Below, one piece after another: positions 2,937-26,610 of a stretch of DNA of 64,000 nucleotides. Within the stretch, counting starts at the first letter, position 1, and each line of letters begins with the position of its first letter. The stretch covers positions 1 through 64,000 of the forward strand of contig NZ_JAINVZ010000024.1 of assembly GCF_019890615.1 (NCBI RefSeq), read 5' to 3'. Source of the stretch: Streptantibioticus parmotrematis. GTDB taxonomy: Bacteria > Actinomycetota > Actinomycetes > Streptomycetales > Streptomycetaceae. The notes under the pieces are model-generated. The model did no database searches and was not told the origin of the DNA. It worked only from the letters and a program-made list of their open reading frames with translations. The position numbers and the translations under genes are program-made.

Positions 2937-4031
2937 TCAGCCCAGCGGGTGCATCCAGCCGTGGGTGTCGGGGGACGCGCCGGTCTGGACGTCCAGCAGC
3001 GCGCGGCGCAGCCGCATGGTGACCTCGCCGGGCTCGCCGTCGGCGATCCGCCAGTCGGCGCGGGTGGACTTGACCGCGCCGACCGGGGTGATCACCGCGG
3101 CGGTGCCGCAGGCGAAGACCTCGGTGAGCGAGCCGTTCTCGGCGGCCTCGCGCCACTCGTCGACCGAGACGCGGCCCTCGGCGACCTCGTAGCCGAGGTC
3201 GGCGGCGATGCGCAGCAGCGAGGCGCGGGTGATGCCGGGCAGCAGCGAACCGGACAGCTCCGGGGTGACGATGCGGTCGCCGTACACGAAGTACAGGTTC
3301 ATCCCGCCCATCTCCTCGACCCAGCGGCGCTCGATCGCGTCCAGCCACACCACCTGCGGGCAGCCGTGCTCGACCGCCTGGGCCTGCGCGACCAGCGAAG
3401 CGGCGTAGTTGCCGCCCGCCTTCGCCGCGCCGGTGCCGCCGGGCGCGGCCCGGACGTACTCCTCGGAGACCCACACCGAGACCGGCTTGACGCCGCCGGG
3501 GAAGTAGGCGCCGGCCGGGGAGGCGATGACGACGAACAGGTACTCGTTGGACGGGCGCACCCCGAGGCCGACCTCGGTGGCGAACATGAAGGGCCGCAGG
3601 TACAGCGACGCCTCGCCCTCGCTGGGCACCCACGCCTTGTCCTGCCGGACCAGCGCGTCGCAGGCGGCCACGAACAGCTCCTGCGGCAGCTCCGGCATCG
3701 CCAGCCGCCGCGCGGAGGACTGGAAGCGCTCGGCGTTGGCGAACGGCCGGAAGGTGGCCACCGAGCCGTCCGGCTGCCGGTACGCCTTGAGCCCCTCGAA
3801 GATCGTCTGCGCGTAGTGCAGCGTCATGTTCGCGGGGTCGAGCGAGATCGGCGCGTACGGGACGAGCTGGGCGTCGTGCCAGCCACGGCCCTCGGTCCAC
3901 CGGATCGTCACCATGTGGTCGGTGAAGTGGCGGCCGAAGCCGGGGTCGGCGAGGATCGCCTGCCGCTCGGCGTCGGCCAGCGGGTGCGAGGAGGGCTTGA
4001 GTTCGATCGTGGGCGTCGTGGGCGTCGTCAT
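2937..4031 (-). CDS. ilvE: Branched-chain amino acid aminotransferase
   Basis: This 364-residue fold-type IV PLP enzyme transfers the amino group between glutamate and the keto acids of leucine, isoleucine and valine, the last step of their synthesis. The PLP lysine lies in [15 protein letters not shown]. The conserved [29 protein letters not shown] and [13 protein letters not shown] blocks are all present. The ATG at 4031 was chosen over the longer reading frame because it follows a GAAGGA ribosome site and matches the family N-terminus. It is a single gene downstream of leuB, separated by a terminator, with a palindrome at 4096-4111 about 65 bp before the start. Confidence 0.95.
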
Positions 4032-22157: not shown

Positions 22158-23159
22158 GTGGAGCGCAGGACGATCGGTGCGTCTGCCCTCGAAGTGGGCG
22201 CGGTGGGACTGGGCTGCATGCCGATGAGCTGGGCCTACACCACCTCGCAGCGGGACGGCGAGCGGTCGCTGCGCGCGGTGCACGCGGCGCTGGACGCGGG
22301 CGTGACGCTGCTGGACACCGCCGACATGTACGGGCCGTTCACGAACGAGCTGTTGCTCGGACGGGTGTTGAAGGAGCGGCGCGAGGAGGCGTTCGTCGCC
22401 ACCAAGTGCGGGCTGCTCGTCGGCGAGCAGCACCTCGTGGCCAATGGGCGTCCCGGCTACGTCAGGAGGGCGTGCGACGCGTCGCTGCGGCGGTTGCAGA
22501 CCGACGTGATCGACCTGTACCAGCTGCACCGCGTCGACCCGGAGGTGCCGGTCGAGGAGACGTGGGGCGCGATGGCCGAACTGGTCGCCGCGGGCAAGGT
22601 GCGGGCGCTCGGGCTGTGCGCCCTGGAGCCGGGCGGCACGGGACGGGGCCGCAGGACGGAGTCCGCTCCGTACGCGCAGGCGCTGCGTCAACTGGAGCGC
22701 GCGCAGCAGGTGTTCCCGGTCTCGTGCGTGCAGGCGGAGCTGTCGGTGTGGGCGCCCGGGGCCGCGGCGGCCCTGCTGCCGTGGTGCGCGGCGCGGGGCG
22801 TCGGCTTCCTGGCGGCGATGCCTCTGGGGAACGGTTTCCTCACCGGGACGTTGACGCCCGGGCAGGGCTTCGAGCCGGACGACGTACGGGCACGGCACCC
22901 ACGCTTCACGGCCGAGATGATGGCCGCGAACCAGTCGATCGTGGTCGGTCTGCGCCGCGTGGCGGAACGGCACGGGGTGACGCCGGCCCAGATCGCGCTG
23001 GCGTGGGTCCTCGCGCGGGGCCCCCACGTGATTCCCGTGCCGGGCGCGAAGCGGGAGCGGTGGGCGGTGGAGAACGCGGGGGCCGCGGGGGTGCGGTTGA
23101 CGGAGGGGGACGTGAGGGAGCTGGCGGGGTTGCCTTCGGCGCGGGGGTCGTGGGACTGA
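22158..23159 (+). CDS. Aldo/keto reductase
   Basis: The 333-residue NADPH-dependent TIM barrel has the family tetrad: Asp and Tyr in LLDTADMYGPFTNELLLGRVL, Lys in FVATKCG, and His in VIDLYQLHRVD. The cofactor-binding end appears in VIPVPGAKRERWAVENAGA. The GTG start at 22158 is preceded by AGGAGG. Its substrate is unknown; the MPMSW...DMYG pattern places it in the large group of bacterial oxidoreductases related to AKR13/pyridoxal reductases. It is followed by the large palindrome at 23186-23517. Confidence 0.87.
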   Translation: MERRTIGASALEVGAVGLGCMPMSWAYTTSQRDGERSLRAVHAALDAGVTLLDTADMYGPFTNELLLGRVLKERREEAFVATKCGLLVGEQHLVANGRPGYVRRACDASLRRLQTDVIDLYQLHRVDPEVPVEETWGAMAELVAAGKVRALGLCALEPGGTGRGRRTESAPYAQALRQLERAQQVFPVSCVQAELSVWAPGAAAALLPWCAARGVGFLAAMPLGNGFLTGTLTPGQGFEPDDVRARHPRFTAEMMAANQSIVVGLRRVAERHGVTPAQIALAWVLARGPHVIPVPGAKRERWAVENAGAAGVRLTEGDVRELAGLPSARGSWD

Positions 23160-23185
23160 GCTGTCGTTTGTGGCCGGCCTCGTGT

Positions 23186-23517
23186 GCGGAGTGTTACGTC
23201 TGCGCCGCTGCGCGGCTTGAGGGGGGCGGAGGCGGGGAGCCATGGTGCTGCGCACCAGCTTGGAGTCCGGCCGCTGCGCGCCCGGCAGGGCAGGCATGGT
23301 TCGCGAATCGCTTGCTTCGCCGTTGTCACCGACAAGCTTTTCGGGGCGCCAATTCCTTGCCGGTGACAACGAGGTGACAAGCGATCGGCGAAGGGTGCGA
23401 CCGCCCCAGCCCGGCACCCTCTGGCCGCGCAGCGGCCAGGTGTCGGCAGGTGCGCAGCACATAGCCTCCCGCCTCCGCCCCCTCAAGCCGCGCAGCGGCG
23501 CAGACGTAGCACTCCGC
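23186..23517. repeat. 332-bp imperfect palindrome, MITE-like or structural repeat
   Basis: The outer arms 23186-23255 and 23450-23517 are inverted copies of about 70 bp with only a few differences; both carry the GCGCCGCTGCGCGGCTTGAG core. Inside lie more inverted segments: GGCCGCTGCGCG-type blocks, and TTGTCACCG (23323-23331) against CGGTGACAA (23361-23369). Almost the whole gene-free stretch 23160-23529 is thus self-complementary. There is no ORF of real coding character and no obvious target duplication. It may be a non-autonomous mobile element or a very large termination/processing structure for the two convergent flanking genes. Confidence 0.7.
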
Positions 23518-23529
23518 GGAATCCCCCGA

Positions 23530-26500
23530 TCACCCAGCCGCCGCTCGTTCCTGGTCCGGGAAGAGGGACAACCGGTGCGCCAGTGCCGCTGCCTCGCCCC
23601 GGCCTGAAACGCCCAGCTTCGCGAGGATGTTGGAGACGTGGACACTCGCCGTCTTCGGGGAGATGAACAACTCCTCCGCTATCCGCCGGTTGCTGTGGCC
23701 CGCCGCGACCAGGCGCAGGACGTCGCGTTCGCGCGGGGTGAGGCCCAGATCCTGCGCCGGGGTCTGCGGGACCTCGCCCAGCGGCAGGCGGGCGCGCCGG
23801 GCGAGGAGTTCGACCGCCTCGCGCAACGGGCGGGCGCCCAGCCGTTCCGCGCTCTCGTGCGCCTGGGCCAGCAGCCGCCCGGCGAGGTCACGGGCCGTGC
23901 TGTCGTCGGCGAGCAGCGTCCGCGCCCAGTGGTGGCGGGCGGTCGCCAGCAGGTGGGGGCGCTCCAGCGGTTCGAACGCGGTGGCCGCCGCGGCCCAGTC
24001 CTCCACCCGGTCGCGGCCGTCGGCCCGGCGCAGTTCGGCCTCGACCAGCGTTCCGTACGCCCGCCACAGCGCGACCGGCTGCGGCAGCGCCCGCGCCGCC
24101 TCGGCGATCCGCCGCAGCACGGCGTCCCGCCCCTCCTCGGCCCCCGGCAGTCCGCGCGCGTCCGCCTCGGCGGTGGCGGCGGCCAGCAGCAGCGGCCAGG
24201 CATAGCGGTGCGCCCCGGGCGGGAAGCCCCGGTCCACCGCCCGGCTCAGCATCTCGCGCGCTTCCGCGATCCTGCCACGGGTGCCGGCGAGCGCGATGGC
24301 CAGGCGGAAGCACCACACGGCGTGCTCCGGCCGTGTCTCGTTCTTCTCCTCGTCCTCGCGCAGCGCCGCCAACGCGCTTTCCGCGCGGTCGAGTTCGCCG
24401 CGGCCGAGGGCGATGTCGGCGAGCAGGAAGTGGACGCTCGCCCGGGGCATCACGTTGGTGGCCAGGCGCATGGCCTTGGCGGCGAGCTCCTCCGCCTCGT
24501 CCCAGCGTCCCAGCGCGAACAGCGAATCGGCCTTGTTCGAGTAGGCCCACGCGAGGGACTCGACCAGCCCGAACCTCCGGTGCGCGGCGATGCCCTCGGT
24601 GGCCACCTCCACGGCCTGCGCCGATCTGCCCACCGACTCCAGCGCGGAGGCGTAGTTGACGTGGCAGCGGCCCAGCACGCTCACGTTGCCGAGTGCGACG
24701 ACCCGGGCGCACACGGCCGCCATCTCGGCGAGGCCGCCCTCGACGTCCCCGGAGTCGACCTTGAGCGTGCCGAGGGTGAGCCGGGCGTGCAGCTCGATGC
24801 CTTCGGCGCCGACGAGGCGGGCGAGTTCCACGGCGCGTTCGGCGGTCGCGTAGGCCTCGGGGCCCGGCTGGTGGATCATGCCCCAGCCGGCGACCAGCGC
24901 GAGCACCTCCGCGTGCACGGCGGACGGCGGCAGCCCGCGGACCAGTTCCTGCGCGCGGCTCAGCTCCGCCCAGCCGTCACCGCGGCCGAGCCCTTCCATC
25001 ACCCGGGACCGCTGCGTCCAGAACCACGCCGCCCGCAGCGGGTCGCGGCCGTCGTCCAGCAGGCGCAGGGCGCGCTTGCTGATGGCCAGGGAGCGTTCGC
25101 GGCGGCCGGACAGGTACGCGGCGACGACCGTCTCGGCGAGCAGGTCGGTGAAGCTGGGGCCCTCGTCGTCCCCGCCGCACGCGGGGTAGACGTCCACGCC
25201 GTAGTCGAACGGGTCCTGGGACTCGCGCAGTTCCCGCGGGGCGTCCTCCCACAGTTCCAACGCGCGTTCCAGCAGGCGCAGTTGCTCGGCGTACGCGTAC
25301 CGCCGCCGGGCCTCGACGGCGGCGGCGAGCACCGCGGGCAGCGCCTTGGCCGGGTCGTGGGCGTGGTACCAGTAGCTGGCCAGCCGGGCCGCGCGCTCGG
25401 CGGAGCGCACCAGCGTGGGGTCGGCCTCCAGGGCTTGCGCGTAGCGGCGGTTGAGGCGGGAGCGTTCGCCGAGGAGCAGGTCGTCGACGACCGCCTCGCG
25501 CACCAGCGCGTGCCGGAAGCGGTAGCCGTCGCCGTCCGCGGTGGGCAGCAGGATGTTGGCACCGACCGCGCCGCGCAGCGCCTCGATCAGGTCGTCCTCG
25601 CCGAGCCCGGTGACCTCGGCGAGCAGCGCGTACTCCACCTCGGAGCCGCCCTCGGCCAGGATGCGGGCGACGCGCTGGGCGTCGGACGGCAGCGCCTCCA
25701 CGCGTACCAGCAGCAGGTCGCGCAGCGATTCGCTCAGTCCGGTGCGGCAGCCCTGGGCGATGCTGCACGCGAGTTCCTCGACGAAGAACGCGTTGCCCTC
25801 GGAGCGGGCGAAGACCCGGTCGACCAGGGCGCTGTCCGGCGGCGCGCCCTGGATGCCGGCTATCTGCGCGTGCACCTCGTCGCGGTTGAAGCGGGCGAGT
25901 TCGACGCGCGGCACGGTGCGCATCCGGTCGAGTTCGGCGAGGAAGGGGCGCAGCGGGTGGCGGCGGTGGATGTCGTCGGAGCGGTAGGTGGCGACGATGA
26001 CCAGGCGGGCGGCGCCCAGTGAACGGAAGAGGTAGGCGAGCAGTTCGCGGGTGGAGCTGTCGGCCCAGTGCAGGTCCTCGATGGCGAGGATCAGGGTGCG
26101 CTCGGCGGCCAGCCGCTCCAGCAGGCGCGCGGTCAGCTCGAACAGCCGGGCCCTGCCCTCCTGGTCGTGCGCCTCGCGGGTGGTCTCCCCCAACTCCGGC
26201 AGCAGGCGGGCGAGTTCGCCCTCCTGACCGGCGGCGGCGCGGGCCAGCTCGTCGCCGAGCCTGCGGTGCAGGGCGCGCAGCGCGGTGGCGACGGGCGCGA
26301 ACGGCAGTCCGTCCGCGCCGACTTCGACGCAGCCGCCGACCGCGACGACCGCCCCGGACCGGCAGGCGCCGGACAGGAACTCCTCGACGAGCCGGGTCTT
26401 GCCGACCCCGGCCTCGCCGCCGACGAGCACGGCTTGCGGCTCGCCGGCGGCGGCACGGGTGAGCGCTGTCTGCAGCGCGGTCAGTTCGGCCGCGCGACCG

Positions 26501-26610
26501 ACGAACACCGGGGATACGGACTGGGTCTGCACGGGTCCGAGCATCCCACAGGGGTCGGACAACAGGGCAGGTCCAGGCGCGTCCGCAGCGATCACCGTCA
26601 CAGCGCTCAC
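23530..26610 (-). CDS. LuxR-family ATPase transcriptional regulator (LAL type)
   Basis: The 1026-residue regulator has an N-terminal AAA ATPase domain with Walker A GGEAGVGKTRL (about residue 65) and Walker B-like LILAIEDLHWAD. A long middle part of helical repeats (TPR-like, Ala/Leu/Arg-rich) follows. The C-terminal LuxR helix-turn-helix spans about LTPRERDVLRLVAAGHSNRRIAEELFISPKTASVHVSNILAKL. Such proteins act as ATP-dependent activators, often of secondary metabolism or sugar use, but no target cluster is evident here. The GTG start lies five bases after a small ORF, with GAGGCGG as ribosome site inside it, so the two are coupled. Confidence 0.9.
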   Translation of the reverse strand: MSAVTVIAADAPGPALLSDPCGMLGPVQTQSVSPVFVGRAAELTALQTALTRAAAGEPQAVLVGGEAGVGKTRLVEEFLSGACRSGAVVAVGGCVEVGADGLPFAPVATALRALHRRLGDELARAAAGQEGELARLLPELGETTREAHDQEGRARLFELTARLLERLAAERTLILAIEDLHWADSSTRELLAYLFRSLGAARLVIVATYRSDDIHRRHPLRPFLAELDRMRTVPRVELARFNRDEVHAQIAGIQGAPPDSALVDRVFARSEGNAFFVEELACSIAQGCRTGLSESLRDLLLVRVEALPSDAQRVARILAEGGSEVEYALLAEVTGLGEDDLIEALRGAVGANILLPTADGDGYRFRHALVREAVVDDLLLGERSRLNRRYAQALEADPTLVRSAERAARLASYWYHAHDPAKALPAVLAAAVEARRRYAYAEQLRLLERALELWEDAPRELRESQDPFDYGVDVYPACGGDDEGPSFTDLLAETVVAAYLSGRRERSLAISKRALRLLDDGRDPLRAAWFWTQRSRVMEGLGRGDGWAELSRAQELVRGLPPSAVHAEVLALVAGWGMIHQPGPEAYATAERAVELARLVGAEGIELHARLTLGTLKVDSGDVEGGLAEMAAVCARVVALGNVSVLGRCHVNYASALESVGRSAQAVEVATEGIAAHRRFGLVESLAWAYSNKADSLFALGRWDEAEELAAKAMRLATNVMPRASVHFLLADIALGRGELDRAESALAALREDEEKNETRPEHAVWCFRLAIALAGTRGRIAEAREMLSRAVDRGFPPGAHRYAWPLLLAAATAEADARGLPGAEEGRDAVLRRIAEAARALPQPVALWRAYGTLVEAELRRADGRDRVEDWAAAATAFEPLERPHLLATARHHWARTLLADDSTARDLAGRLLAQAHESAERLGARPLREAVELLARRARLPLGEVPQTPAQDLGLTPRERDVLRLVAAGHSNRRIAEELFISPKTASVHVSNILAKLGVSGRGEAAALAHRLSLFPDQERAAAG

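Follow-up and report, generated by a model that had tools for sequence, protein, structure and literature searches.

What is the 332-bp palindrome that lies between an aldo/keto reductase gene and the gene for a LuxR-type regulator in Streptantibioticus parmotrematis, and how did it come to be there? The window (the whole stretch of 64,000 nucleotides that was analysed) holds the element at positions 23186-23517 of NZ_JAINVZ010000024.1, which is contig C17 of the genome labelled G000. The genomes compared include G001, Streptomyces sp. ICBB 8177, one other species of the same genus, and G017 and G022, genomes from two further Streptomycetaceae genera carrying the inner core. In locus pairs such as L016/L030 the first member is from G000 and the second from G001; U denotes the outer unit, S the stem arm and I the inner palindrome, with primes for the right side. 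The features of the locus are:

23186-23517, no strand: whole composite palindrome in the order U-S-I-S'-U' (inverted repeats, fold and copies)
23186-23216, + strand: left outer unit U, 31 bp, with hairpin GCCGC-TGC-GCGGC (pattern search)
23217-23300, + strand: left stem arm S, with triloop hairpins, for example GGTGC-TGC-GCACC at 23244-23256
23301-23393, no strand: inner palindrome I, with a TTG/CAA core, also found alone elsewhere (covariance model; nine inner-only loci)
23394-23486, - strand: right stem arm S', with GCA-loop hairpins, for example at 23449-23460
23487-23517, - strand: right outer unit U' (inverted repeats and pattern search)
22158-23159, + strand: neighbouring aldo/keto reductase gene (PF00248, E 1e-63)
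23530-26508, - strand: neighbouring gene for an AAA_16/GerE (LuxR) regulator (PF13191 and PF00196), whose ORF may start at 26610

A long imperfect palindrome between convergent genes

The initial annotation described a near-complete palindrome with inner inverted blocks, free of coding content and lying between convergent genes, and this description is borne out. Complementarity between the outer arms (23186-23225 and 23478-23517) is 98% over 40 nt; between them, additional inverted blocks continue to the centre of the element. Since its identity to its own reverse complement is 73% over 332 bases, the palindrome is an imperfect one. The + strand folds at -260 kcal/mol, compared with -165.7 ± 5.7 kcal/mol in 100 shuffles (z = -16.6), and the - strand at -267.9 kcal/mol (z = -17.4); none of the 100 shuffles folded as well as the element on either strand. 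Open reading frames cross it, yet none received a gene score from a codon-usage caller written for the analysis. The aldo/keto reductase gene (+) and the gene for the LuxR-type ATPase regulator (-, stop at 23530) converge on the element, whose edges at 23186 and 23517 are blurred, weak similarity at the ends of copies extending about 11 bp past them. The covariance model matched the window at 23301-23393 (+) and 23299-23391 (-).

Dispersed copies with a narrow distribution

The outer-arm search of the genome itself, proposed in the initial annotation, returned dispersed copies beside unrelated genes and identifies the element as a dispersed repeat. That search found 40 matching pieces in G000, the nearest paralogue showing 81% identity. 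Nine composite palindromes were counted by reading the sequences (the window copy on C17, two on C12, one each on C56, C21, C15 and C6, and two on C10), and an inner-part query gave nine further loci with the inner part alone, three of them halves or shortened; weak matches on C42, C13, C10:89480, C45 and C11 were left out of this count. The genome holds about 18 scattered copies of the family. One locus on C6 (L021:3001-3851) holds a double composite whose two inner modules are separated by about 370 bp. A 20-base outer-unit pattern, allowing up to two mismatches, had 27 matches in G000 and 18 in G001, which also bears composite or partial copies; the reversed control had none.

Arms that are imperfect inverted copies of each other might be put down to chance or to a local inverted duplication at this locus alone. 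The dispersed copies refute this, as unlinked copies have a common sequence and module order, and no shuffle folded as well; it is virtually impossible. A single local structural RNA was also rejected, since copies are dispersed and the window element had no Rfam match up to E = 1.

The spread to other actinomycetes envisaged in the initial annotation is real but narrow, the outer arm occurring in one other species and the core in three genera. Among 84,980 species (one genome per species, in which records close to the window may be absent), the exact 21-base outer-arm pattern was found in ICBB 8177 only. BLAST detected the inner module in 2 of 297 Streptomycetaceae genomes (best three candidates scored per genome) and the covariance model in 4 of 394 (G000, G001, G017 and G022; three of 17 genera). 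A model extended with the new members returned the same 4 of 394; both covariance searches were run under Infernal's stricter filters, so that absences are not absolute, and eight other-genus genomes with one weak match each (E = 1.4e-4 to 7.4e-4) were left out of the counts. Neither the window element nor the G017 element matched plasmid or phage records, the inner module had no match in plasmid records, and three patterns found nothing in IMG/VR.

Modular anatomy, polar hairpins and a conserved core

The hairpin unit U measures 31 bp, or about 42 bp including its outward extension, and stands in tandem in places. Across 17 loci (nine in G000 and eight in G001; 7,110 bp), 88 hairpins have a 5-bp stem and a three-base loop and seven have a four-base loop, against a nearly flat window background (187 versus 150). 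The triloops are polar: in left halves 25 of 39 are TNC and one is GNA, and in right halves 37 of 49 are GNA and none is TNC, counts that are not independent events because the copies descend from one element and the hairpins from a few ancestral ones.

This polarity recalls Streptomyces telomeres, whose overhangs form hairpins with GCA loops, and the palindromes described in parts of PMC4513846 and PMC7205883 have packed hairpins and GCA-type loops on one strand in common with the present family. The copies might be integrated remnants of a hairpin-ended replicon, telomere-like or single-stranded, each strand bearing its GNA-capped hairpins in the 3' half. We consider this very unlikely: the family is chromosome-internal, two-armed and present at many loci, its likeness to telomeres lies in hairpins that descend from a few ancestral ones, and plasmids and phages gave no match. 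A fusion of two telomeres, their ends meeting at the centre, was rejected, as it needs the opposite hairpin polarity, if the overhangs carry GCA loops.

All 27 inner-palindrome cores compared, which come from three genera, carry the same TTG/CAA pairs, 10-11 bp apart, at columns 28-30 and 38-40. Other core pairs covary across genera (119 two-sided cells versus 68.8 shuffled; score 0.324 versus 0.185), although relatedness can inflate this score. Because TTG/CAA is kept across the three genera while other arm positions change in step, these putative contacts, one helical turn apart, look more like paired protein-binding ends than an RNA fold.

Loci common to two species

Each of the 18 G000 loci has a G001 counterpart that contains at least part of the element (partial synteny only for L021/L033, L027/L057 and L028/L060), and no clean empty site was seen among these locus pairs. 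Four G001 counterparts are short remnants. At the window locus in ICBB 8177 (L040) about 24 bp of the left arm are joined to the right flank between the same two genes; about 31 bp are kept at L037 (pair L023/L037), bits of both ends at L058 (L017/L058) and 12 nt at L063 (L053/L063). Of 1000 random window pieces, drawn with the element included, 4 and 2 reached the values of L058 and L040, respectively, and may stem from that copy. L030 and L031 in G001 are without the left outer arm, and at L054/L035 the outer units are missing from the G000 copy instead. The short alleles are most simply explained by deletion, L058 being the clearest case; in principle L040 and L037 could be ancestral short units, the element having grown in G000.

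One centre has flipped. At L016/L030 (L016:3127-3219 versus L030:3014-3106) the two species carry the inner module in opposite orientations, with 8 and 8 arm mismatches within species and 1 and 1 across. By eye, columns 31-40 of the inner-module alignment A1 also divide into two subfamilies with near reverse-complementary 13-mers (TTGTCTCCGGCAA versus TTGTCGGTGACAA), as would result from an ancestral inversion of the segment.

The case for age is built on the shared loci and the remnants; dating by the nearest paralogue (81%) was dropped, as orthologous elements themselves differ by 11-33%. The flanks of two G001 loci, L032 and L038, have no clear match in G000 and are uninformative on timing. 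A gene with a likeness to Lsr2, judged by eye, is followed about 0.9 kb downstream by the L032 copy (1789-2106, 3001-3337).

We favour, with a probability of about 0.6, the reading that the window palindrome is a copy of an old, non-coding family of nested palindromes which spread in an ancestor as a non-autonomous mobile element and is now a fossil. In the ancestor of this small Streptomycetaceae genus, before the two species split, the family would have spread across intergenic DNA, its inverted ends being recognized by a recombinase that has since been lost or escapes recognition. Copies would since have shrunk by internal deletion, the centre could flip, presumably via recombination between the arms, and substitutions would gather on each arm independently.

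Divergence, arm pairing and gene orientation

If pairing mattered, arms should match better within a species than between species. In 10 of 11 locus pairs (L054/L035 was left out for missing anchors), the inner arms had 7.5 mismatches of 33 in self and 7.25 in cross comparisons (p = 0.875), the low cross value arising because the L016/L030 module is inverted between the species; without that pair, self was 7.4 and cross 7.9, a small difference in the direction that selection would give. The inner arms have changed independently since the species split, and nothing in the inner module points to selection for pairing, a result that speaks against a conserved RNA or terminator. In nine locus pairs single stem changes broke 70 pairs and kept 37 (raw counts, taken without a neutral expectation), and double changes kept 14 and broke 12, 13 of the 14 falling in L020/L034 and L054/L035. 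Pairing was 0.797 with arms of other loci versus 0.853 with the own arm, and the own partner was best in 5 of 23 cases, the duplicate row L045 having been left out. A structural RNA is also at odds with the lack of any Rfam match and of within-lineage compensatory arm changes.

Elements diverge between the species by 11-25% in five pairs, in addition to indels, a range that leaves out L054/L035 (33%) and the inverted L016/L030 (25%); divergence at four-fold sites is 12.0% (1039/8683). The copies change at or above this neutral rate. L020/L034 (25%) and L054/L035 (33%) lie well above it.

A DNA site for a host nucleoid or regulatory protein, with the palindrome as a docking site via the TTG/CAA contacts, would account for the invariance of these pairs and for the inner module standing alone at nine loci. 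We consider this quite unlikely: only 4 of 394 family genomes carry the module, and copies diverge at least at the neutral rate and have been lost between sister species.

The 18 G000 loci comprise seven convergent, ten tandem and one divergent, and background gaps of at least 30 bp in the window comprise four, 27 and eight (n = 39), as called with a simple gene caller written for the analysis. The convergent excess (7/18 versus 4/39) has a Fisher p of 0.026 and the divergent deficit a p of 0.25; eight of the ten tandem copies are closer to the 3' end (p = 0.11). This placement fits insertion tolerated where it is least harmful, or a mild terminator role. The convergent excess, the 3' bias and the very stable fold of both strands lend weak support to the giant bidirectional terminator proposed in the initial annotation, or to an mRNA 3'-end stabilizer, with the hairpin kept by selection. 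Either is unlikely, as no T-tract (intrinsic) terminator was found in 23000-23700 (shuffles average 0.5), ICBB 8177 keeps about 24 bp between the same gene pair, 11 of the 18 loci are non-convergent, the inner arms are not co-evolving and single stem changes break more pairs than they keep (in raw counts). Any effect on transcription at the window locus may be a by-product of the element, putative terminator activity being a side effect. The between-genera covariation and the convergent excess could, counter to the fossil reading, also suit a function.

Mobility and likeness to known repeats

Counting against a fossil mobile element, no clean empty site, target duplication, parent transposon or Y1 transposase was found. 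Direct repeats at the exact edges were 0-2 bp in 16 copies, in keeping with the initial annotation, which saw no evident target-site duplication; the edges are blurred, and with a shift of ±3 two copies reached 6 bp, as random pairs do at 3.25%. Matches to the outer unit and inner module in G000 fall at the catalogued loci, and no parent transposon with the same ends was met there or among 20 neighbour proteins, which include enoyl-CoA hydratase, GGDEF, P450, Ppx/GppA, MFS, MurB, FtsX and TRCF-type domains and no transposase. The Y1 transposase (PF01797) has no match in G000 or G001 and was found in 5 of 14 control genomes, and a RAYT-driven REP was rejected on this ground. The transposition that we infer has left no gain demonstrable since the species split.

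The element is best read as a fossil MITE- or REPIN-like palindromic mobile element, which works like a MITE or a REPIN and is filed as neither. The likeness to a MITE noted in the initial annotation holds for its small size, non-coding sequence, terminal inverted repeats and many dispersed copies. MITEs and MITE-like repeats (Correia, ERIC and YPAL, as treated in parts of PMC10969869) are likewise short, non-coding, intergenic and clade-restricted, with inverted ends; the present family differs in having no detected target duplication or parent and in its build of three nested modules, of which the inner palindrome also stands alone. The same parts of that review describe pneumococcal repeats inserted into one another and inversion of Correia elements. 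REPINs and BIMEs, according to sections of PMC3116915, are doublets in which a short hairpin unit is repeated in inverse orientation; their ends are conserved and the folding spacer less so, singlets are probable remnants, and tandem clusters occur, all in common with the present family, which is far longer, has three-base loops and lacks a Y1 (RAYT-type) transposase. Compensatory changes are reported there for REPINs, whereas arm compensation was not seen here between the two species.

With CGTC-tagged REPs (parts of PMC3733652) the family has in common the lack of a dedicated transposase and, by eye, CGTC near the hairpin in 29 of 40 unit rows. Here CGTC is no end tag, three bases precede the stem, and hairpins have three-base loops on a 5-bp stem core, compared with loops of 4-5 bases on stems of 8-9 bp; with stem, loop and terminal CGTC all differing between our unit list and the account available in that paper, a CGTC-REP was rejected. 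No description of such a repeat in Streptomyces was found in titles and abstract openings, a search that largely excluded subscription journals, and word searches of the available text of PMC3733652 and PMC10969869 gave no mention of Streptomyces.

Should the fossil-element reading hold, high-GC actinomycetes gain a palindromic repeat family, with a two-species record of long palindromes shrinking and flipping and a conserved core that suggests an undescribed DNA-binding enzyme. A further caution is that a huge predicted hairpin beside genes is not necessarily a conserved terminator. More speculatively, and rather improbably, there may be a putative superfamily of nested palindromic elements in Streptomycetaceae that moved as folded single-stranded DNA, with GNA-capped end hairpins of one polarity like those of telomere overhangs and a bipartite TTG/CAA core site. 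Their arms would have been rewritten symmetrically in each lineage with the contacts kept, and their helper enzyme would belong to a class so far unconnected with repeats of this sort.

A related 153-bp family occurs in G017, with the terminal inverted repeat CGGCGTGTCG; five of seven copies read have both ends and measure exactly 153 bp. An apparent autonomous element in this genome, with half matches about 2.2 kb apart, was rejected as a parent; IS4/5-type transposase domains lie between the halves, and it is read as a target of those elements. At L083:1501-3779 about 2.1 kb with IS4/5-type transposase domains interrupts a 153-bp palindrome copy close to its loop.
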